This document shows, piece by piece, positions 1-59,160 of a stretch of 64,000 nt of DNA. Every line of letters begins with the position of its first letter. Position 1 is the stretch's first letter. Source of the DNA: Escallonia rubra (lineage: Eukaryota > Streptophyta > Magnoliopsida > Escalloniales > Escalloniaceae); the NCBI GenBank assembly GCA_033065855.1, contig JAVXUO010000482.1, positions 124,001 to 188,000 of the forward strand, read 5' to 3'. Below the pieces are notes generated by a model that saw only the letters and a program-made list of their open reading frames with translations, did no database searches and had not been told where the DNA came from. The position numbers and the translations under genes were made by a program.

Positions 1-1765
1 GTCAAAGGGGAGTGAGCTTTTGAGAGCCCAGTAAGGTCGCACAAAGATTTAAAAATAAGAAAACGATACGGACGATTTGACATTTAAACCAGAGAAAATT
101 TTAAAAGCGGAGAAACAGAGCGGTTCAAACAATCTTTCTATATACAATCAAACGATAATTTTAAAAGGGGTTTTCAAAGAAAACCACAGCATTTCATGTA
201 AACATTAGGATGAGTATCAACTCAGTTCCTTTAAATCGATAACCATTTTTAAAACACCTAAAATGCAATAGACATAAATAGGAAACGTTGAACATGAGCA
301 GTACAGAAGCAAAGCCACCCCGGCAGTGCTCGATACACTTACATATGCATATGTACACTGACTAGTCCATCTAGGTACTAGTTAAACCCATCCAACAGAC
401 CATCCTTATAACGCCAACAATACAGACCATCCTTATGGCTCCCAAGTTACTAACTCATGTCAACATTGAGAAGTAATAAATAGAATTAAAAAATGCTTTA
501 CAATGAGAAATCAATAAACATATCAAATGAACAATGGATTCCAACATGAGATGAAACAGAATTCCAAACGATCGCTATAAGGCTCAAATTAGGCTTTCAT
601 GGACAGTTTCAAAATAACTTTTATATCAGCATAAAATCGAATCAATTTAGTTTGTAAAACTGTTCTATAAGCATTTGAAAACAGAATAACGAAATGGGGT
701 TCGGATAGAAATCCCTTACCTCGGTCCAAGCTAAGCGATGCTACCAAACCTCGATCAATATTAAAATCTCTGAATGAACCTAGATTGACAATTTATTTAT
801 TAGAACATAATTTATGTCAAACACGCTATAAACCCTAATATCAACTACCCACTGCGTACCCACTCTTTCCGAAATCGCGCACTCAAAACGGTTCTCGCAC
901 ACAGCCAACTTGACCGAAAATCCTATACACTCCTTAACGGGTACCGACACTCTAGAATTCATAATAATTTACACTAAAACACTTTTATAGCTTAAAACAT
1001 TATTAAAAGTAAAAATATGCATTTTCTGAATTTTTGAATATTTTCGAATTAAAATAATTTCTTTAAATACAATAAAAACCCAATAATAGCCATAATTACT
1101 TCCAGTAGAAAAATAAGTCCCATAATTTTTATAAGAACTTTAAAATATATATAAAAATTATAGAAATTCAAATCAGGATTTAAACGACATAAAAAGTATT
1201 TTTAGATTTTTCGTTTTGCTAAAACCAATGCGATATGGAAATCATAGCAAAACAACTCCAAAAATTACCAAATTGAAACTGAGTCTTATTTATACCATAA
1301 AGACATTACTATAATTTTTCACAAAACATTTTCAGGGTTTAAAGGCTCCAAAAGAATTTTCCAAATCTGAGATTACAGAAAATATTAAAAATACATACGA
1401 TTTCAGAAAATTATAAAAATTTGCCAGAAATTCTAATATAGTCTATCGTATTATACTGTAAAGTTTTATGCACTAATGATCATCATACACTATCGAATGC
1501 TCGCACGGCACTTAACGCTAACCCGTTACACCTACTGCACAATTTACTGTGACCCAAACCCAATTCACTTCCGGTTCACTTCCTTCTTCTTCTCCTTGTT
1601 CATTGCACTCATAGACTATTGCACTCACAGACCCCATGAAACTCACACCCCACAGTCATTACATTCACAAAACACACACACATACATACATTACACTATA
1701 TTCTCACTTCTCCCTCAATACCCACCTGGTACAAACCCACATATCTTAATATTTATCCTGCCATG

Positions 1766-1787
1766 CCCACTGCCTCACGGCAGTGGG
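1766..1787. repeat. Palindrome 1 of LTR family L (CCCACTGCC-TCAC-GGCAGTGGG)
   Basis: A perfect 9-bp stem with a 4-base loop. The same sequence stands at 55009-55030 in copy 3, inside otherwise variable DNA. Confidence 0.9.
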
Positions 1788-2617
1788 TTTCCCTTCTTCT
1801 TTCATTTTACACATTATACAGGCTCACAACTCACCATTTATACTCACACATGCTCACAGCACCTCACCACTACACAGCTGCACCACCTCCCATTTTCACT
1901 ACTTTCATGCACACACAAACTCCATAACCTGTACACACTCCATTCACAACACATACCATCCCACGCACCTCACAGCTCACACACTAAAACACACAACAAC
2001 ATGCATGGACATCTCCCTACACCCATTGATTTACAAAATACCATAACACTTCCCAAAGCACTCTGCCTATGCCTACCCACGGAGCATATCTTGCTCCTGT
2101 CACCTTCCTCTCTTCTCTTATCCAATACATGACCTCATACAACCAACCAACACTAACCCACTGCCGTGATTCCCCTTTCCCCTTACACATATAACCACAC
2201 TTTACACCCAAAACACACTCAAAAACATACGTACCCATGCTGGGCAGTCCACCCATAACACCAACCACAACACCTCACAGCCATAATCAATTAAACCCAT
2301 TATACACACACATTACACTTGATATGGCAGCCGTGTAGCACCCACTTCAGTTCACTCACTCTTGCAGATGTATTATACATACCCACATATCATCCATTCA
2401 CACACATATGTAAAGACCCGCACACCCATTGATAAACCATGACCCACTTCAGTTTAATATATATATATCTCTCTCTCTCTATCTTGCTTCTTACACCCAC
2501 CAAAACATACACAATACACATGAACATCTCACGGCTATATTTACTACAGTCATAACCCTTCACAGTTATTCTTCCTCTCTAATCCTCAATCCCTTAACCG
2601 CATATACACAGGTGCAC

Positions 2618-2642
2618 AGTCACAGCCACCATGGCTGTGACT
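2618..2642. repeat. Palindrome 2 of LTR family L (AGTCACAGCCA-3-TGGCTGTGACT)
   Basis: A perfect 11-bp stem with a 3-base loop. Copy 3 has it at 55078-55102 with the last base of the stem changed. Confidence 0.9.
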
Positions 2643-3471
2643 TGCTTGAACCACTCGTTCTTCCCATAAACGTACCCACAGTAAACGGTTTCTCTCTCTC
2701 TCTCTCTCTCTCTTCCTTCCAAGCACCCACGCAGACACCACCGTTTAATCACCACCATACACTGCACCAACACACATTAAACCCACGCCTCATACAACCA
2801 CATGGCTGTTCTTCTCTCTGTCACACGCCAATAAAACCCACAAGGTGCAAACTGCCCCCTTCCACGGCCAACATCAAATCTCACAGCTCCCTCAAACCTG
2901 CACGTGCTCGCACACGACGGCAGCCATGCCCCCACTTCATGCACACTCGCATACATCTCTCGGTAGATCCAAAAACACACCCATAAAATTGAAAAATCTG
3001 AGAACAATTTGCCAGAAAAACTTACCGGAAAATAATTGCTATTGTCGGAAACTTCGCCGGAACCCTTCTCCCATCTCCTTCCTTTGCTCTCTCACACTCT
3101 CTCGAGTATTTGATTGACGGCCGAATGGGAGCCTGAAGTCGGCTGCCTAGAGAAAAGGGTATTTAAATATGTGTAACAATGCAACCCTAGTTAGACAATG
3201 AAAACCCTACACATCCATTTGTCGCTAAAACCTAGCTCTAATTAATCCAAGCTTATTATTGCGAAAATTGTAGTATAATATAATATTTACGATACATGAT
3301 GTGTTAGGAAAATTATAAATGGTTTGTTACGTCATCCCGTTTGACAAATCGTCGCTAACAAGAACGCCAATACTATAAGAAGTTCAATTGTCGTTAAAAA
3401 ATATATCGATGCTAACTAAAGATTTCATCGCTAAAATTTTTAATAAATCGAAAAGATATCGGGGTGTTACA

Positions 3472-4640
3472 GACCTACTCGAGCCTTTTACTAAACCAGC
3501 TAGTTTCGGGTGCTAGCTCAAACCGCAGTACAATTTCCGAAACCCTTCCAAGGTTTCCAACATTTTACAAATGAAAAGAGATTTACAATTTGAATACAAC
3601 AAACAAGCTCCTTCTTGTGAGCAAATGTTACAATGAATAAACTAAGACTAAGCCTTCTTAGGTGGAAAGATCTATATTCTTTTAAGAACCAAACCAAGAA
3701 GCTTACAATGAACTATCTCAAAGATGAACTCACTCAATAGAGAATAGATGAGAATAAGAGATCAAGATGAGAGAGTGTTTTGAGATGAGTTTTTAGAGAG
3801 TATTGAAAAAGATTCGCAAGAAGTGTATTAAATGCTCTCAAGGACCCCTTTTTATACTGGTAACGGATTGAACCGTTAGGAAGGGAAAGCCAAAAAAAAA
3901 AAAGATTCGACTAAAACAAAAGTTTGATTCGACTTAAAAGTACTATAAAGAGAAAACGGTCGACTAAAAACTTAGTAAGGAAAGATGGTTAAAAACACTG
4001 AAGAATAGAGTCGACTAAAAACACTTTTTCATTCGACCTAAAAGTTTTGCTTCGACTAAAAACTTTTGCTTTGACTAAAAACTTTTTGGCTTCGACTAAA
4101 AACTTTTGGCTTCGACTAAAAGTTTTGCTTCGACTAAAAACTTTTTGGTTTCGACTAAAAACTTTTGGTTTCGACTAAAAGTTTGGCTTCGACTAATTTT
4201 TTTTTTGGCTTCGACTAAAAGTTTGGCTTCGATTAAAGGCTTTTGGCTTCGACTAAAAACTTTTTTAAGACTGGAAAGAAGGAACTGCCCAATTTAGTGG
4301 ACTGCAACCTGTTTGCCTTCGACTTAAACAACCATTTTTGGTTCGTTACTAGAATTTCTGTGAGATCTTTTAAGAAAGACTTAGAAATGCTAACAATGAA
4401 AAAAATAGACTTCAGGTTCTTGCATCTTCAATGTGGTCCAAGTCTTTGAATCCCGAGTCCAAGTCCAAGTTCAAGCTTTGTCCAAGTCAAGATCTTGTCT
4501 TTGTTTGATTAAGATAAATCCTGAAATGTTTATCTTAATAATGTTGTCAGATTAATGTTAGAGATAATAAGTTTGGAATAATCAAAATCAACAAGTCAAC
4601 AAAGGTGATGCTTGAAGATTTGTTTTCTCAAAAGCTTGAC
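3472..4640. other. Repeat-derived sequence without a gene
   Basis: No coding region is supported here. The segment lies between the end of long LTR copy 1 and the LTR fragment that begins near 4640. It is AT-rich and contains the 20-bp minisatellite listed separately. Its composition resembles the untranslated parts of an LTR element on the minus strand, but I could not find both ends, a primer-binding site or a polypurine tract, so the family is left open. Confidence 0.4.
4010..4265. repeat. 20-bp minisatellite, unit about TTCGACTAAAAACTTTTGGC
   Basis: About a dozen or more imperfect copies of TTCGACTAAAA followed by a short T-rich spacer run head to tail. Spacer length varies between units. 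Looser copies extend left to about 3900. The open frames at 4106-4297 and 4243-4449 exist only because the repeat lacks stops in one phase. Confidence 0.85.
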
Positions 4641-6191
4641 TAAGGTAAGGGTTTGAACGCTCTTGCTATGGTAAAGGTTTGTAACGTCTTTGCTATGGTA
4701 TGGTTTGCTTCTTTAAATCTGAAAAAGAGTTGTTGGAGTTGATTAATCTTGTTTTGTAAGGGATTCTACCTTTTGATTTTGGCTTAGGTTTCCTTCTTTG
4801 AATTTGAAAAATTATTGGATTTTGATCAAGCTTGTTGTGAAAGGGATTTTATTGTTGTTTTTGTTGTGGGAAAGGTATCTTTCAGAATCCGAAGGTTTAT
4901 GCTTCGTCAATTTTGGTTCATCTTATTTGTTTGCATTTCATTTGTCCCATTTTTGCCCTCTTTTGAGAACATTTTTTACCCCTTTTTGTTTGTGCCGGAT
5001 GATGCACATCATTGAATTCGTACATTTGTGACATTCAATTTAATATTGACACTGACTATGTTGAACAACTCTCGAAATAGAGAGGGTCCTTTGGACATAT
5101 GTTTGTTATGCTAGAGAGCCAAAGACTCCTAGTACGCTCCAGAGCACATGTTTGATGTTTGGTTCGACATTTGGGTCTTATTACCGCCATAGTCATCGCA
5201 TGTTTGTAGCGTACCCGACATATAATTGAAATGTGTTTGGGTTAAACGCTTAATGACGTTTTCTTTGGTATTTGACAGTAAGATATGATTGCTCATTTTC
5301 GCACCTTCTAGCTTGTATTTAATTTGGGCTCTTTGGACCACCTTATGAACATTTCATATATTTGATTCACCTTATTTGCATCGTGGTCAATTGCTATCAT
5401 TTGTTCGTTAGATATTTGATTTTGTTTTGGACTACGAATTATCGTATTTTCTTCCCTTTTGTTTTCCACTTATTGGGCTATTCGAGCTCACCCCCCCACC
5501 CCACTCGTTTGTTTTGTCCTTTACCACATGTATCAGACGTGATTTTGGGCGTGGCATGTTTGGGGAAAATAGAGCTTTTAGTTTTTGCTAGTATAATTGA
5601 GCAATGTAAATCATTTGAGAACTCTAGCCGGAAGTGAGTAATTTAGCTTGAGACTTAGAATTTGTATTGAATAGTAGAGTTTTGGTCCCATTATTTGGTT
5701 TTAGTGGATTTTGATGAGGAAGATTGTTAGTTAAGTTTTTGAAAGGATTGTATTTAACTCTTGGATCTTTTGAGATAAATAAGATTGAGATTTAGAAAAT
5801 GATGTTTGTGGTATCGTAGATGCTCTGCTATACCTTTATAATGGTTATGTCATTGACGTGTTTGGGTCTTATTTTAAAGACGTGTATGTACCCTAAAGTT
5901 AAAGTATTGATCTTATGAGCGTAATTGAATGATTGGAATTCATTTTGGAGAGCTTTACCTCGATATGAGTAATTTGATAGAATTAATTCTTGGTGTAATT
6001 TGTTAACCGCTGCGTTTATTAATCGTTTTGTAATGGAATTATTTTGAGAACGGATTGTCATAGACTTTTGTTTGTGGATATATTTTATCTTGGAGGATTT
6101 AGTTGCTCTGTCTATACATTTATCTTTAGAAACTGTAATAGTATATAATGGAGTTTGATGTTTGTCGCAGCCTCTCGTTTTCGGGGCGTGA
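4640..6191 (+). mobile_element. Diverged 3' part of an LTR related to the solo LTR at 6715-8815
   Basis: The block at about 5040-5240 aligns by eye with 8105-8300: both read through a stretch about 'aacaactctc', 'ggacacatttg', 'agcacgct', 'gatgtttg', 'gtttgggtctta' and 'agtcatcaca' in the same order. Both then run to a terminus with GGGCGTGAC (6183-6191 here, 8806-8815 there). The left part of the LTR is missing, apparently replaced by the repeat-rich DNA before 4640. Open frames inside are short and unsupported. Confidence 0.6.
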
Positions 6192-6714
6192 CGCTCGCCC
6201 TATAGTAACCGGTCATTCTTGTAATCAATTCCATCATAATCAGGATTAACTTTTAATGCTTATAAGTTGTCTAAACTTTACTAATTAATCTTATTACTAA
6301 TGAAAATTTAATTATAAGTCTTACTGAAAAGATAGTTTTATTAATCGTAAGGGTTCTATATAAAAACGAATTGGTAAATCATTAATATTTTAGAATTATA
6401 CGGATATATTTTATGCATCATAAAAATTTCAAATGTTCCCAAAATAAAGTAATTAAGAATTATTTTATTTTTTTAATGCATATGTGATTTATTTTCAAAT
6501 TTTCATATATGTGATATAGCCACCTATTGATCGTGTGGTCATATCAAACTAGCAAAAAATTATTCTATAAATTGATTATTGATCTTATACATCCAAAATA
6601 TTATTTTCATACCTTTATATACACTGAAATGTTTGGTATATAGCTTTAAATCCTTTTCAACTATCATATTTACAAATAAGTTTTACAATTATTGCGATTC
6701 TAATTAATAATTAT
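6192..6714. other. AT-rich intergenic DNA
   Basis: No open frame, repeat or regulatory motif stands out. It is the flank into which the LTR at 6715 inserted; its last five bases (ATTAT, 6710-6714) are the left copy of that insertion's target duplication. Confidence 0.6.
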
Positions 6715-12103: not shown

Positions 12104-13855
12104 GAAAAATTTACGAGGTGTGGTTTATCTTGTTATGTAAATAGTCTGCATACTGCTTTAGTATTGGTTTATCTTGTTATGTAAATAGTGCGAGGTGTGG
12201 TTCGGCAGCCTTTTCATCTTTGTCCTGGACAAATATACTGCTTTAGCCATTAGTCTGCATATTGCATCGTTATGGGCTCTTAAAAATAATTTCCTGCATA
12301 TAAATGTTATAACTGAATCTTGTTTCCTCCTCAATCAGATTGCAGGTTCTGAAGACATTTTAGATACGGTGACACCCATCTTCTATGATTTTTGTTATGG
12401 TGTAACAGATTATCATCACTTTAGTATGGACAGGGCAGCCCCTCACCTTTTGACTGAAGCACGGCTCCTAGCTCATTTTGCATGTTAGGCCCGTATAGAT
12501 ATTTACCAAGACTAGGTTGATGACAAAGTGAAGGGTGTTGGCCTTGGTTCGTAGTGATGCTGATTCATAGACTTTTGCAGGGTGTCTTCCGGGTTTGGTT
12601 TGTATTTCCTTTTATGAACTCTTTTTTCTGTCTTGTTGTATTAGCCTTATGGCTGGATGTTATTTCACTTTAAATACAATTCTCTTATTAACAAAAAAAA
12701 AAAAAAAATTTATGACTATCCATTCTGCATAGCAATAGCCTGTTTCAAGCACAAAATTCCTTTTAAAAGCAAGGTCACGTCTCAGGAGTTCAATAGATTA
12801 TCATGTTGCGTAGGACCTTTTAGCTATGAAAATTTATGTTAAAAAGCAGACCCCTCGAGGGTACCAGTCACTAGTATCTGTAAACCGGTACTTGTTATAC
12901 ACAATGCCAGCACCTTATCTGCCATTACCGCCAAAGCCAAATTTAACCGAATATGGTCTGTTGACCACCTTAATACCTTTGGGGAAAATGGACGTTCTAG
13001 TACTAACTTGAGATACTTTGTAAAAACAAAGGCCAAAATAATGACCACTTTAACTGAGAACAAAATCTCTACTTAACTGAGACTTGAGGAAGTTATGCCT
13101 CGCTAGTGACGAGAAAAAAGTGATCTCTCTCTATGTTTTACTATGCGTAAAATAAATATCTAAAATATTTTTTAATATATACGCTATAAGGTTCATTATC
13201 TTGTGAGGGAGATATAGTACTGATAATCGAGTTTTGAATTATTCGTTCTATTTCTTTTATGCACTTGTGTTGGTGTACGAGTTTGCCTTGCTCATAATGA
13301 AAGATCATTTTGTGAGAAAAATGAGTACAGTACTCCCCAGTTGACTTGAAAAGATTTCGCATGTCGTTGCATTGAAGTCACATTTAATAAAAATGAACAG
13401 ACATGAAGCCCAAATCTCAGTTTCTTATGTCTATATATACAGTCATAAATTGGGGAATTTTTTGTGTGGTATAGCTTAGTTAGTAACCTCGAGAATAACT
13501 TTTGCATCTGCCATTGGCCACGAGTAACAGTGAAACGGCTCTTTCTTGTCACAGATCGCCGCTGGTTTAGTTCCGTGATTGACTGTGCCCAGGATTACAG
13601 TGTTGAAAATAGTTGCTTCCCTTGTTCTTCTCTGAAGTTTATCACTTCCCATCTTAAGATTCTCTAGTTGCCAGAAAGCGATCAACATTCCATTTGAAAA
13701 GCTTTTATTCTGATTCCAGTGCTTTGATTAAGATGACAAGGCATCCACCCATGCTATCAAATTCCTCCCTTTCGGAAAAGTGGTGATTTGCTTGGATAAG
13801 ATCAGAACATTTGAGATGCCTGCGCGTTAAACGTATTTTGGTTGTTCTAATGGCA
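12104..13855. other. Upstream region of PP2-A, no gene seen; possible retroposed tail at 12600-12708
   Basis: A 25-bp stretch starting TGGTTTATCTTG is duplicated at about 12120-12145 and 12166-12190. From about 12580 a T-rich segment ends in ACAATTCTCTTATTAAC and a run of A (about 12692-12708), which looks like the 3' tail of a non-LTR retroelement or processed copy; no reverse-transcriptase frame is attached. Short open frames at 12195-12488, 12657-13063 and 13141-13688 match nothing I recognise. Confidence 0.4.

Positions 13856-23384: not shown

Positions 23385-23452
<68 letters not shown>
23385..23452. repeat. (CA)n-(TA)n microsatellite, left of the inverted-repeat element
   Basis: A run of CA dinucleotides changes to a run of TA that ends exactly at the inverted-repeat element. 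The mirror arrangement (TA then CA) lies at 25767-25820. Confidence 0.9.
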
Positions 23453-23454
<2 letters not shown>

Positions 23455-23815
23455 GAGCTGATCCGTTGAGAGCGCTAGCAAAATAGGAGATCTTGCAAAC
23501 GCGATCTGGCCGTCCATCCTGAAAGATGGACGGCCCAGATCGCGCCTTTTTCGAATATTGTCAGTCGTTCGCGACATAGTGTCGCGGACGGACTTTTTTA
23601 CCTTTTTGCCCCTCCGCCCCGTCCGCTACACTGTTTCCCGGACAGCATTCAAGTCCTGACACGCGACAGTAAAAAGAAATCCGCTATACAGTGTAGCGGA
23701 CGTCTCTTTTTTTTATGTTTTTTTAAAGTACGTCCGCTACATTATGTAGCGGACTATTTTTTGACAAATACCCTTTAGCTCTCGTCCGCTACATTATGTA
23801 GCGGACGAGTAGGCA

Positions 23816-24372
23816 GTGCCTTTTTCCCCTTTCTCTCTCATTTCTCAAATTATTCGTCTGACATGTTTCTATTTCTCTCTCTCTCTTCCCTCATCAATGC
23901 ACATGTCTCTTTCTCTTTCTCATGAAAATTCTCTCTCCTTTCTTTTTCTCTCACCACTTTTTATTTTCTCTCACCACTTTTTAAACCTCTCTATATCGTC
24001 TCTTCCTCTAAACCCACATACACACACACACAGCAGCACATGCAAAGTCACTGCCGCCGCCGACGGCAGTGATGGTTTGAAGGCGCGCATCTCGCCTGAG
24101 AGGCCCCCGTATAAGATGTTTTCTCCAACGAACTTGTCAGAAAAGAACGGCAGAAAACGCATGCAAGTAGCAAAGCTAGACTCCGCCAATCCAAAGCTCA
24201 AGATCTAACTGTCCTTCCGGTTCAGATTGATTTATGGATGTTGATGATCTTCGTCCTGGAAAAATAAAGGATTCCAGCAATAACTCTGATGAGGAACAGA
24301 GTCTCAAAGAGATGATCGAACAGTTAAAAACTCAACTAGAAGATCTGAGACAGGAAAATTGGTATTGCTGAG
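23816..24372 (+). pseudogene. Captured gene-like fragment inside the inverted-repeat element
   Basis: Two adjoining frames look coding. The first (to 24208) changes from a TC-rich leader to a charged stretch with KARISPERPPYK and KNGRKRMQVAKL. The second starts at ATG 24234 with MDVDDLRPGKIKDSS and runs into a heptad-like acidic/Leu helix, SLKEMIEQLKTQLEDLRQEN, then stops. A one-base shift would extend it as an Ala-rich helix. The codon-like composition and the coiled coil suggest a host gene piece, perhaps a leader plus first exons. I do not recognise the gene. Confidence 0.35.
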
Positions 24373-24494
24373 GTGTCTGCACAAGTGGCTGCCGCCCAGA
24401 CTAAAAGTAGGCCTAATCAACGGCTTTCTTAAAGTTCTTTAGCGTTTAAGCAAGACAGTTTTTCAAGCTTTACCCTTCTTGCAACAAAATAACT

Positions 24495-24595
24495 CACTGT
24501 CTGGCTTCTTGGAGAGAAAAGCATTGCCTACTTGTCCGCTACATTATGTAGCGGAAGAGTAGGCAGTGCTTTTCTCTCCAAGAAGCCAGACAGTG
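24495..24595. repeat. 101-bp near-perfect hairpin
   Basis: Left arm starts CACTGTCTGGCTTCTTGG and the right arm ends with its complement, CCAAGAAGCCAGACAGTG. The arms pair for about 45 bp with only a few mismatches, and the centre is one of the 23-bp palindromes of this element. A transcript of either strand would fold into one long stem. Confidence 0.9.
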
Positions 24596-25364
24596 GTTCA
24601 TGTTAAAATTCAAACAAACAAGTATTATATTAAAACAGAAAAATGCGTAGAGGTTTTGAAGTGTCGCTGATCTCCGCCGAGTTCCCGACAATGGGACGGT
24701 AGCTGGGCCCCACTACGCCTTGTTTCCTGAAGTGTCGCTGGATTTTCCATGGAACCCAGAAAATGGAGTGCAGAGGTTTTGAGAGGAAGAGTAGAAGCAA
24801 AACGGGCGGGAGGGAGGGAAGATGCACCAACTTTGATAGGGAGCAAATGGTTTCATTGTGTTCGGCGAGCTGATCTAAGACGAGGCCGTCGTCATCTCCG
24901 CCGGCTGGATCATGGAGAGGTGTAGCGGCATGAGCTGAAAGAACAAATGGGTTTCTAAAATATTTTTCTGTATTACTTCACTGTCTACATTCCTTTGGCA
25001 GTAATATATACACGGAAGGTACATCCAGATATGAGAGAAAAACGTGGAGAGATATATGCCTAACTGTTTACACTTTAAACTAACACTTTAAACATTTGAA
25101 CTTGACTTTTGAATTCAAGAAGATGATGTTGCGGCAGATTCATATAGGATAGAAGCTTATCCTTGGCAGGTTCACATGATGCATTTGAATTTGACTTTTG
25201 AATGAAGAAGATGATTTGCGGCAGATACATGTGGGTGGAGGCTTATCCACGACTGGTTCACACGATGCAAATGTGTTCAGAGAGGGGAGAGAGAGAGAGA
25301 GATGAAAAAGAGATGGGTTTTTTTTCTCTAAAGAGAGACAGAGTGTGAAAATGGACTGAAAACT

Positions 25365-25575
25365 TGTCCGCTACATAATGTAGCGGACGTAACAGACTGT
25401 CCTTTTTGTCAAAAAATTTGTCCGCTACATTATGTAGCGGACGAGCTTAAAAAAACTTAAAAAAAAGTCTGTCCGCTACATAATGTAGCGGACGTAACAG
25501 ACTGTCCTTTTTGTCAAAAAATTTGTCCGCTACATTATGTAGCGGACGAGCTTAAAAAAACTTAAAAAAAAGTCT
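25365..25575. repeat. 106-bp direct duplication carrying two 23-bp palindromes each
   Basis: The stretch from GTCCGCTACATAATGTAGCG to the A-rich 'cttaaaaaaaagtct' occurs twice in tandem with almost no differences. It lies in the right arm of the inverted-repeat element. Confidence 0.9.
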
Positions 25576-25763
25576 GTCCGCGATATAGTTTAGCGGACGG
25601 GGCAGAGGGGCAAAAAGGTAAAAAAGTCCGTCCGCGATATAGTGTCGCGGACAACTAACAGTATTTGAAAAAGGCGCGATCTGGGCCGTCCATCTTTCAG
25701 GATGGACGGCCAGATCGCGTTTGCAAGATCTCCTATTTTGCTAGCGCTCTTAACGGATCAGCT

Positions 25764-25816
<53 letters not shown>

Positions 25817-28242: not shown

Positions 28243-29130
28243 CCGAGTAGTGCTGATTAATCCTAATTAGGGCTAATTAGGCTTAATTAGGTTATGTTAG
28301 GGCTAATTAATGTTATTGAGGGTTAGTTTCGGATAATTATAGCTAATTAGGGTTGATTAGGACTAATTAGGGTTATTTAGTCCTAATTAGGGTTTAATTG
28401 TGCCGAGTAGTGCTGATTAGTCCTAATTAGGCTTAATTGGGTTATGTTAGGGCTAATTAATGTTATTGAGGGCTAGTTTCGGATAATTATAGCTAATTAG
28501 GGTTGATTAGGACTAATTAGGGTTATTTAGTCCTAATTAGGGTTTAATTGTGCCGAGTAGTGCTTAATAGTCCTAATTAGGGCTAATTAGGCTTAATTGG
28601 GTTATGTTAGGGCTAATTAATGTTAATGAGGGCTAGTTTCGGATAATTATAGCTAATTAGGGTTGATTAGGACTAATTAGGGTTATTTAGTTCTAATTAG
28701 GGTTTTAATGGTGCCGAGTAGTGTTGATTAGTCCTAATTAGGGCTAATTGGGTTATGTTAGGGCTAATTAATGTTAATGAGGGCTAGTTTCGGATAATTA
28801 TAGCTAATTAGGGTTGATTAGGACTAATTAGGGTTATTTAGTCCTAATTAGGGTTTTAATGGTGCCAAGTAGTGTTGATTAGTCCTAACTAGCGCTAATT
28901 AGGCTTAATTGGATTATGTTAGTGCAAATTACGACTAATTAGGCTAACTATAATCAATATGCGCATAATTGGGTTCATTTGGGCTAATTTGGGGTAATTA
29001 CAGCTAATTTGATTTTCATTAGGTTCTTAGGATTAATTAAAACTAATTAGGCTCATTAGAGCTAAATAGGGTTAATTGATTTACTAAAATATTGTTAATC
29101 AGAACTAATTAGGGCTAATTATAGCCAGTG
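28243..29130. repeat. TAATTAG-rich tandem array of CACTA-A, about 155-bp period
   Basis: Five copies begin CCGAGTAG or CCAAGTAG at about 28243, 28403, 28553, 28713 and 28865; periods alternate between about 150 and 160 bp. Each is made of degenerate CTAATTAGG-like octamers. The same octamers, on the opposite strand relative to the window, occur in CACTA-C at 57942-59160, so the array is a lineage feature. Confidence 0.9.
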
Positions 29131-55914: not shown

Positions 55915-57941
55915 ACTGTTTTAATTTCTTACTCTTAGGTAGCTACAATCAATTTCCTTTTCTTGCTCTGAATAGAACTTTAATGTACGACGCGTCGGTA
56001 TGCGAATTAAGACCAGCGACCTTAGAGCTATCCCCCAAGGCTTCCGCCATTTCTCCCACCCCTTGAGTTCGGTAGCTAGAAATTTTAAGCATATTATTTA
56101 TACATTAAAGATGTGCTTCTAAAGCATATAATTGCGATATGCAGCACTTCATCGTGCTCAGCACAACCCACTTGATAATCAAAGGCAAGATAATAAATTG
56201 AATCAACATGTCATCAAATCAGCATTCAACCACAGACGCATGAACTTACAGTGATTAGCCAAGGACACAGAAACTAGATAAATAGAAAGCATGAGAGAGA
56301 GAGAGAGACTAAATGTACCACTGTTAACTGAATAGAATAAAAACCCTAAGCAAACCGACACTAAGTGTACCATGAATGTGAGACTATATACTCACGCACT
56401 CACGACTAGATGTTGCATTTGTTGTTAATAAGAAGCCTAAAGACCAAAAATATGCAAGGAGCAAACCCGAGAGATCAGCATACTTTTCTGAACCCAGATA
56501 TACCTAAGATTACTACAAGAAGCATAAACAGTCCATCCCTGATGTAATACAAGAAGCATAAAATCAGCCTTTTCCTGATCTTACTACCAATTATGACAAT
56601 ATAGATACCTTAAAATCATATGCCGCATGATATACGCATATTCACCACAGGAAAGTCCCTAAGAGCGGTCATAGAGACATATTGCTTGATTTACAAATTA
56701 AACAACCACAAAAGTTATCAGACAAGGAAGATGGGGGAAAGGAAGCTAGGCATAGCAGATTATCGCTGGAGGAAAGGAAGCTAGGCATAATAATAGGATC
56801 TTCAAAAAAGGCATCTTTTCATCTTAAAATCTTAAAATCTAACACAAAAAAAAGGATCTTTTCAAAAAATGCATAACAATAGGATCTTCAAACTCTCCCA
56901 ACACAATATCTTAGCATCTTTTCATCTTAAAATCTGCCAATTCACAGGCAAAATACCACTGTTAACTGCCAATTCACAGGCTACCTCCACTCCCTTCATT
57001 TCTTTTTCTTATGGAAAGATAGTCAATATACACACGTAGTGAAGTTACTTAACACGTCTAGTCTAGTAATGTACTCCTTCCGTTATTTATATATATGTTT
57101 TTTGGACTGTTCCGAAAAAAATGATCACTTTTCCGTATACTGTTAAGTGTTAACATTCCTATAATTAAATGCTTTTTATGTGACAAATGATTCAGAGTAT
57201 ATTGTATTTATCGACAATATCTCCTTCGCTCCAAGATTTTTTAGGAGATTGTTGTTAGCATGAAATTAACTCGTACTGTGCCATGGTTACATGCAGTTTT
57301 AGCAGCGGATCAACTTTGTTGCCTTTTAAGAAGCAAGTCTAGAACCCGAAAAGGTTTGTGTTTCATTTAATTCTTCTGAAGCCTATGATTAATTGTCATA
57401 TGTTTTCTGCCATTATCTTCCCTAAAATTGAGATGTTTGATTTGTGATGGCCAGATTTGTGTAATCTGAGTTTGTGATGTCGCAAATGATCAGTTGTGAT
57501 GTTTGATTTGTGTAATTGTCCTTGGTCTGACTTGTTAATTATGGATTAAACTTTTGAGAATTGAGATGGTTGATGGAGAATGGGACCCAATTGGATTGAG
57601 ATATTTGATATGTGCATTTTGAACAATTGTTTGCCTATTTGAGCATTGATTATTTTCTTACTCTTTAGGTTGTTGATTGTACATTTGAGAATTAAGACTG
57701 TTGATGGTTTTAGGTTGTTAAATGTGCATTGAGCATTTGAGAATTGAGATTGTTGATGGAGTATGGGACCCAATTGGATTGAGATATCAAATATGTGATT
57801 TAGTTAAATGGTGGGTTGAAATTAGCTTAATTCAAAAATGAAACATGACATGGTGGGTTGAAATTAGGTTCATCTGCCATAGGTTAATTAAGTTAATAAG
57901 GTTCATATTTCATTGGGTGAAATTTTGGTTCCGCCACTGAT
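55915..57941. other. CACTA-C 5' region (putative intron), no gene
   Basis: AT-rich DNA. The sequence 'gaattgaga.tgttgatgga' with 'gggacccaattggattgaga' occurs twice (about 57558-57602 and 57741-57784). The frames 56682-56876 and 57546-57773 are unsupported. Confidence 0.5.
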
Positions 57942-59160
57942 TAGCCCTAATTAACACTAATTAATTCTGATTAGTGTTAATCTACACTAAGTAGGCTAAT
58001 CAGCCATATTATCCCTAATTAACCATGATTAACACTAATTAGCCCTAATTAGCCCTTGGGAAGCACCGACACTTCACATGAGTCTAGGTATGGTGTCAGA
58101 CAACTACCGACACCCCGACACATGAGTCTAGCCCTAATTAGCGCTAATCAACTCTGATTAGCCCTAAGTAACACTGACGGACACTAAATAGCCCTAATTA
58201 GCACTATTCACCCCTGATTAGCCATAATTAACACTGATGAACACTAAAAAGCCCTAATTAGGTATAATTAGCACTAATCAGTCCTAAATAGGCCTAAATA
58301 GCCCTAATTAGCACTAATCAACATTGATTATCCCCAATTAACAGTGATTGACACTGATTAGCCCTAATTAGCACCTACGCAGTACCGACACTTTATATGA
58401 GTCTAGGTATGGTGTCCGACAACTACCGACACCACGACACCTCACCAGCACCTTCAGACACGTGTCCGACACCTCTCTGCGATGTCCCAGTCGATGTCGG
58501 TGTCGGACACAGTGTCCGTGTCTGTGCTACCTAGATTAGCACTAATCAACACTGATTATGCTAATCTGCCCTAATTATCCCTTATTAGGGCTAATTGACA
58601 ATAATTATGCTAATCAGGCCTACTTAACACTGAGTACCCCTAATTATTCCTAATTAGCAATAATCAGCCCTAATTAGCCCTAACTAACACTGACGGACAC
58701 TAAATAGCCCTAATTAGCACTAGTCAGCTCTAATTAACACTAATAGCTCTAATTAGGACTAATTTGCACTGATTAGCCCTAAATAACACTAATGGACACT
58801 AAATAACCCTAATTAGCACTAATCAGCCCTACTTAACACTAAATTGCCCTAATTAGTAATAATTACCCCTAATTATCCCTAATTAATCCTGAGTACCCCT
58901 GATTAGGGCTAATTAACACTGATTAGCATCGACACTTTAAATGAGTCAAGGTATGGTGCCCGACACCTACCGACACCTCGACACCTCACCGGCACCTGCT
59001 GGACACGTGTCAGGCACCTCTCTACGGTGTCCCGGTCGGTGTCGGTATCAGACGTAGTGTCCATGTCCGTGCTACCTAGATAAGCACTAATCAACACTAC
59101 TTAGCTCTAATATGTCCTACTTAGCCCTAATCATCCCTACTTGACCTTGATTAACACTCA
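57942..59160. repeat. TAATTAG-rich array and CGACAC blocks of CACTA-C
   Basis: Degenerate CCTAATTAGCACTAATCA-like units fill the stretch, interrupted by three blocks with CGACACC and GTGTCCGAC motifs (58065-58130, 58384-58545, 58927-59085). The array stops about 95 bp before the transposase start codon. The same pair of repeat types lies next to ORF2 in CACTA-A. Confidence 0.88.

Follow-up and report, generated by a model that had tools for sequence, protein, structure and literature searches.

What is the 2.3-kb palindrome-rich unit that lies between two TA microsatellites in the 64-kb window considered here (the whole stretch of 64,000 nucleotides of Escallonia rubra DNA, part of contig C2109 in an assembly of 566 Mb and 3222 contigs), and what might its palindromes be for?

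The element in the window

A preliminary description had proposed a mobile element with near-identical inverted termini of about 105 bases, each containing a hairpin, which framed about ten copies of a palindrome and had inserted in (TA)n. Much of this is borne out (Table 1). The inverted ends are present, but at 193 nt they are longer than was claimed; a hairpin can be read in each; and TA tracts directly abut the ends, (TA)17.5 adjoining GGGAGC on the left and (TA)20 adjoining GCTCCC on the right. The palindrome, GTCCGCTAC-N5-GTAGCGGAC, has 12 matches with up to three mismatches in the window, every one of them within the element (six perfect, one with one mismatch, one with two and four with three), compared with a mean of 0.01 and a maximum of 1 in 100 shuffles. 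Five form a subterminal cluster (23567-23806), six lie at 25366-25652, and the remaining one is in the central hairpin; there are also two identical 105-nt units, at 25365-25469 and 25470-25574. Elsewhere in the window, degenerate tandem arrays of CTAATTAGGG-like units occur, in opposite orientation, at 28263-29077 and 57935-59142.

Table 1. Features of the element and its flanks (window positions; hairpins of the terminal repeats were read by eye)
Feature	Position	Strand	Remark
Left (TA)17.5 tract, target site	23418..23452		
Left terminal inverted repeat, 193 nt	23453..23645	+	92% complementary to right arm
Hairpin of left terminal repeat	~23500..23544		read by eye
Palindrome 1	23567..23589		3 mismatches
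Palindrome 2	23621..23643		3 mismatches
Palindrome 3	23679..23701		2 mismatches
Palindrome 4	23732..23754		perfect
Palindrome 5	23784..23806		perfect
Probable captured gene fragment	24053..24444		95% to C1037:187310-187689
Central hairpin, arms 59 nt	24486..24604		88% complementary
Palindrome 6, within central hairpin	24534..24556		1 mismatch
Palindrome 7	25366..25388		perfect
Palindrome 8	25420..25442		perfect
Palindrome 9	25471..25493		perfect
Palindrome 10	25525..25547		perfect
Palindrome 11	25576..25598		3 mismatches
Palindrome 12	25630..25652		3 mismatches
Right terminal inverted repeat, 193 nt	25574..25766	-	92% complementary to left arm
Hairpin of right terminal repeat	~25675..25719		read by eye
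Right (TA)20 tract, target site	25767..25806		

Between the palindrome clusters lies the interior stretch 24053-24444. A search with it gave seven candidates (all scored), so it is of low copy number and looks like a captured gene fragment; besides the match given in Table 1 it resembles C1037:115618-116162 in two pieces (93-94% identity). Judged from its sequence, the element (23453-25766) probably has a captured gene fragment as a putative Pack-MULE-like interior.

A large family in TA tracts

In a search with the 193-nt arm, the best 40 of 3384 first-look candidates were scored, and were 94-100% identical. The 15-nt end GGGAGCTGATCCGTT occurs exactly 2010 times in the assembly (993 + 1017; backward control 0), these being counts of places in the assembly, where a flank common to L025 and L027 indicates that alternative haplotypes may be present among the contigs. 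Among the 2010, 958 adjoin TATATATAT (456 + 502) and 659 adjoin ATATATATA (331 + 328), so that a perfect 9-bp TA run lies beside 1617 (80%) and is lacking at 393; the background, in the window outside the element, is 29 perfect TA nine-mers in 61,392. The tabulation of flanks that had been recommended thus confirms the association with TA tracts genome-wide. G or C stands at position -5 in 44 of the exact ends, and in 13 of these 44 places (e.g. C1301:216111) long G runs, with at least eight G in all, could be seen by eye before the end; these may reflect slippage of the terminal G run.

Stretches around 35 of the best arm matches were fetched (three of them extended) and, with the window, allowed 26 two-ended elements to be delimited, which are the closest relatives from one search rather than a random sample. 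Their lengths are 1243-2557 bp in 24 cases, with one of 4956 and one of 8627 bp. The expectation that the palindromes belong to the family was upheld: all 26 contain 7-13 (up to four mismatches to a degenerate pattern). At 51 of the 52 ends the first palindrome is met 112-116 bp inwards, and at 46 of 52 the second is 165-169 bp inwards. Copies with neither TA flanks nor palindromes were looked for, and none occurs among the 26. The stretches analysed include 78 end-like sites, 65 of which adjoin a TA run of at least 9; the other 13 are one chance match (window 51711) and 12 ends that resemble those of the family but have imperfect flanks.

Genome-wide, the palindrome is found at 13,102 places with up to one mismatch, and at 0 in the backward control; together with the shuffles in the window, this excludes a chance cluster or a satellite. 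A repeat independent of the element was also rejected, as both of the places examined that had no exact end nearby (on C12 and C2) are situated within TA-flanked relatives, 115 bp from their variant ends.

Some further arrangements deserve mention. Two copies are stacked end to end via one TA tract, with 70 bp between them (L011, 4915-4986), and contig C1455 (L047) terminates within the TA tract beside a copy. Different ends (GGGAGCCGATCCC...) are found in similar TA tracts at L033 6551 and L036 4608, and transposase-like stretches in the same loci (L033 88-2247, L036 5648-6313) are 48% and 43% identical, respectively, to the family transposase described below. From these sequences, related MULE families may share the TA target.

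Insertion into TA tracts

How might such an element have entered a microsatellite? If a duplication of odd length is made in a perfect TA tract, the last letters of the two flanks, both read into the element, will be opposite. This odd phase was found in 13 of 14 delimited copies whose ends both have GGG and whose flanks are both TA (even in one), and in 14 of the 18 listed pairs of ends up to 6 kb apart on contigs before C437 (even in four, of which one, on C127 with length -12, is not an element); C230, at least, is in both sets. If the two ends were independent, 46% would be odd (p 0.006 and 0.0003 over the two sets). Target duplications are of 8 bp in hAT elements and 2 bp in Tc1 elements. 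The mainly odd phase therefore fits a duplication of 9 bp and not one of 2 or 8 bp, and an origin as a hAT or Tc1 element, from which even phase would be expected, was rejected. The single non-TA insertion fetched (L053) has flanking nine-mers that match at 7 of 9 positions, by eye; the 28 places on one contig with exact 9-bp AT sites included no pair that flanked a single copy. We suppose that the element would be joined into the TA tract by way of a staggered cut of odd length, most likely 9 bp, and that the tracts would afterwards alter in length by slippage.

The TA tracts might instead be mostly a consequence of insertion, the element having picked short AT sites that later expanded. Maize empty sites have only 6-8 bp of TA, which grew after insertion (as cited in PMC5907723), and the empty sites of MuTAnT elements in Medicago average nine repeats, compared with about 15 per flank (PMC4486113). 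Even so, the TA tracts of the window are bordered by (CA)n and (AC)n repeats, which suggests an older microsatellite, and expansion would modify TA targeting without replacing it; we view it as possible, while inclining against it. The speculative proposal put forward for SaTar elements, that a circle with microsatellite filler enters by homologous recombination and with no staggered cut, arose because the flanks of microsatellite-targeted copies misfit cut-and-paste (PMC5907723). It would accommodate the end-to-end stacking through a common TA tract that is also encountered here (L011), but it is at odds with the prevalence of odd phase in both sets, compared with 46% for independent ends, and seems to us very improbable.

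A Jittery-type transposase in the long members

The preliminary description had advised looking for a MULE transposase with the same ends, and one was found. In L039 a family end at 749, in TA, is followed by an open frame of 761 codons (stop to stop) at 1720-4005, with FAR1 (4.6e-12), MULE (PF10551; 1.4e-29) and SWIM (2.4e-5) domains. An NCBIfam match to IS256 was below its cut-off, and a search of solved structures gave no match at E 0.001. From 4744 first-look candidates, 59 genome copies of the transposase were scored; all are at least 93% identical, and 46 are free of stops, which suggests a recently active system. For six of the 59 the upstream stretch was fetched, and in all six a family end (up to two mismatches; four exact) is present with TA-rich flanks. 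TA directly abuts the end in five; in the sixth (L049) a short interruption separates the 7 bp of TA beside the end from a (TA)12 tract. Palindromes accompany five of the six ends; the stretch from L048, ending shortly after the family end, has none at the threshold used.

A MULE-type transposase in copies with the family ends places these elements in the MULE superfamily (Mutator-like elements), and the combination of an N-terminal FAR1 domain with MULE and SWIM domains is that of the Jittery type. The unit at 23453-25766 is thus very probably a non-autonomous member of a high-copy MULE family located in TA tracts. The transposase of the long members would act in trans on the inverted ends of such non-autonomous copies.

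The B3 gene and other genes of long members

In C77 (L054), four palindromes 56 bp apart lie 3' of the transposase gene, and are followed by a two-exon gene with GT-AG borders. Its product, of 125 aa, matches the full-length B3 domain (E 1.9e-8, above the Pfam cut-off); with exon 2, a search of solved structures gave weak B3 matches (E 0.19 and 0.71). The best 150 of 1389 first-look candidates for exon 2 were scored, and all are at least 96% identical, 148 of them without a stop. At least 19 of the 59 transposase copies, compared by eye, are followed at 0.70-0.89 kb by one of the 150 scored exons in the same orientation. Fourteen copies of exon 2 were compared over 273 nt: seven equal the majority, so that the burst looks recent, and seven differ from it at one to six codons. 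The unique changes (eight non-synonymous and six synonymous, from 614 and 168 possible), being few, weakly suggest that the B3 sequence has been under constraint; dN/dS is 0.010/0.040 for C77 compared with C2981, and about 0.5 to C2953, a copy with a stop. A diverged B3-like stretch (exon 2 about 45% identical; L018/L045 joined, 6123-6529) is present in the 8.6-kb member on C853, which gave no match to the transposase at 1e-6. This stretch may be an accessory gene of long standing or may have been captured separately.

Other genes are also found. Beyond the B3 gene lies ORF-B, which encodes 153 aa; the 150 copies scored share at least 91% identity, and about 126 of them, counted by eye, lack a stop. 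It is followed by a paralogue, ORF-B', of 144 aa and about 30% identity. Neither gave a confident Pfam match, and a fold prediction for ORF-B (helical, mean pLDDT 52) was uninformative. The gene order varies: in C77 ORF-B and the transposase converge, whereas in C2953 they share a strand. An antisense region nearer the far end has matches to the plant mobile domain (PMD; 1.9e-46) and to Ulp1 peptidase (1.3e-6). This picture was pieced together from C2953, C821, C2981 and the 4956-bp copy, the last of which (L026, 1929-6884) has the PMD end of a long member without the transposase. End spacings of 11.5-11.9 kb recur (C67, C183, C378, C400) and agree with C2953 plus C821, and we infer that these are whole long members.

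The 23-bp dyad

In 372 distinct contexts the half-site consensus of the palindrome is (C)GTCCGC-T/G-A-Y-A-Y around an A/T centre. Positions 1-6 are ascertained, having been used for site finding, but positions 8 and 10, which are free of this, are A in 96% and 99%. Exact half-sites (GTCCGC-B-A-Y-A, in 333 kb) have a partner half at fixed distance in 559 of 573 cases, which makes the dyad the unit. Complementarity at the inner pairs 7/17 and 9/15 is more frequent than in any of 200 shuffles, a test weakened by the relatedness of the copies, and pair 11/13 does not exceed its 200 shuffles. Spacings between dyads peak at 53-54, 57-58 and 75-78 bp, and a single helical phase was therefore dropped. 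Tandem arrays at 75-78 bp were seen away from the ends of long members in L039, L035, L013, L040 and L054.

What might act on these dyads? To the preliminary description the palindromes looked like symmetrical protein-binding or cruciform sites, which is plausible. We tentatively consider, from the sequences, that they may be binding sites of an element-encoded DNA-binding protein, for which the B3 protein is the first candidate, the link between the two being one of co-occurrence. By analogy with known systems, the family might possess its own operator system, in which dyad arrays at both ends and between genes would be bound by the element-encoded B3 protein, shielding members (non-autonomous ones included) from silencing or licensing their transposition; this more specific proposal is speculative and, taken as a whole, rather unlikely. 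A B3 protein bound along the element would sustain the element's activity, in the way that VANC sustains that of VANDAL elements, or would help to assemble the transposition complex.

The dyads could instead be pictured as subterminal sites of the transposase, extending end recognition, with the B3 gene unrelated to them. The outer dyads do sit where transposase sites are expected, at the near-constant distances from 51 of 52 and 46 of 52 ends given above, and non-autonomous copies, for which recognition alone is needed, keep them; yet in long members dyads are also found well away from the ends, in intergenic stretches and in the 75-78-bp tandem arrays, where end recognition would have no need of them, and we regard this explanation as doubtful. 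Nor does it seem likely that the dyads have a purely structural role, as DNA cruciforms or RNA hairpins, or that they were left over from fold-back amplification, no protein being bound to them. The 23-mer can fold to a 10-bp stem (RNA parameters), there are further hairpins at the ends and centre of the element, and the complementarity of pairs 7/17 and 9/15 points the same way; against this, pair 11/13 is no better than shuffles, and the letters themselves are held rather than just the pairing, as the half-site consensus and the near-invariant A at positions 8 and 10 illustrate.

Relationship to known elements

TA targeting by MULEs is already established (PMC4486113, PMC5907723, PMC8449440). 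The preliminary description had set the element apart from the small Micron elements of rice (re-classed as non-autonomous MULEs in PMC5907723). In size and TA targeting it is not distinctive, as microsatellite-targeting MULEs in print include rSaTar5 of 1.9 kb (PMC5907723) and AutoMuTAnT of 4.9 kb (PMC4486113). The contrast survives for the palindromes: no dyad array in a TA-targeting MULE was met in the literature searched, which lay mostly outside subscription journals.

The closest resemblance is to MuTAnT and AutoMuTAnT of Medicago (PMC4486113), MULEs in TA microsatellites whose long fold-back ends open with a run of G and which have 9-bp duplications where they sit outside TA and, in the longer relative, a Jittery-like transposase. 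The end sequence here (GGGAGCTGATCCGTTG) nevertheless differs, by eye, from the printed MuTAnT mask (GGGGTTTGCTAGAACA, beginning GGGGTTTGCTAG; PMC4486113), so the two are of the same kind and not of the same family. MuTAnT numbers 218 copies, with one putative autonomous element that is 4.9 kb long and contains a single ORF; neither a dyad array nor a B3 gene was met in the available part of its description, where the ends are called fold-back modules and 'palindrom' appears once, in a remark on FARE1 (PMC4486113). The end string GGGAGCTGATCC was absent from published texts among the matches listed.

SaTar elements, including Micron, of guayule and rice are likewise non-autonomous MULEs in microsatellites and show end-to-end stacking, but they also target other microsatellites (PMC5907723; compared by description, not sequence), and 'palindrom' has no occurrence in the main text of that paper. 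The Ac-mMITEs of pineapple are abundant, Mutator-derived and located in (TA)n, with recent bursts and TA-joined clusters, but are of 210-570 bp, with ends that begin GA, and their authors found no autonomous partner (PMC8449440). FAR1 and SWIM domains in the transposase are shared with Jittery-like MULEs, in which a downstream Ulp1 is known (PMC2528002), and PMD genes, often antisense, are known in other MULE clades (KI-MULEs, with Ulp1; PMC6446971). No dyad array was met for either group in the available parts of these two sources, and 'b3 domain' has no occurrence in PMC6446971 or PMC13317346.

For short-motif arrays in non-coding DNA coupled with an element-encoded DNA-binding protein (binding being putative here), the parallel is with VANDAL elements and VANC in Arabidopsis (PMC5735166, PMC10398659), VANC binding dense arrays of a 9-base motif in VANDAL21 (PMC5735166). 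That motif is no dyad, however, VANC has DUF1985 rather than B3, and VANDAL21 is a non-TIR MULE; the present family has 193-nt inverted ends, and no DUF1985 match was found in the ORFs scanned. A B3 gene inside a MULE was not met in the same, mostly non-subscription, literature; in one paper that mentions B3 along with Mutator-like elements, the B3 gene is a neighbour. The TA-targeting MULE is therefore a known kind of element, and its conserved dyad arrays and B3 gene are unreported in the literature searched.

Implications

Few autonomous partners have been preserved among the published TA-targeting MULEs, with one putative example in Medicago (PMC4486113) and none found in pineapple (PMC8449440). 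The closely similar and mostly stop-free transposase copies described here suggest a recently active system in which to ask how TA tracts come to be chosen. The argument from phase allows the parity of a duplication to be deduced in perfect repeats, where its length is unreadable, and bears on whether such elements enter by cut-and-paste or by recombination. Together, the B3 gene and the dyad arrays offer a specific and testable case of what may be a second sequence-specific regulatory system that a plant transposon encodes. If the operator proposal were true, a counterpart of VANC would have evolved independently in a Jittery-type MULE that targets TA, a plant transcription-factor fold would have been taken over by a transposon, and this could help to explain the family's recent burst.
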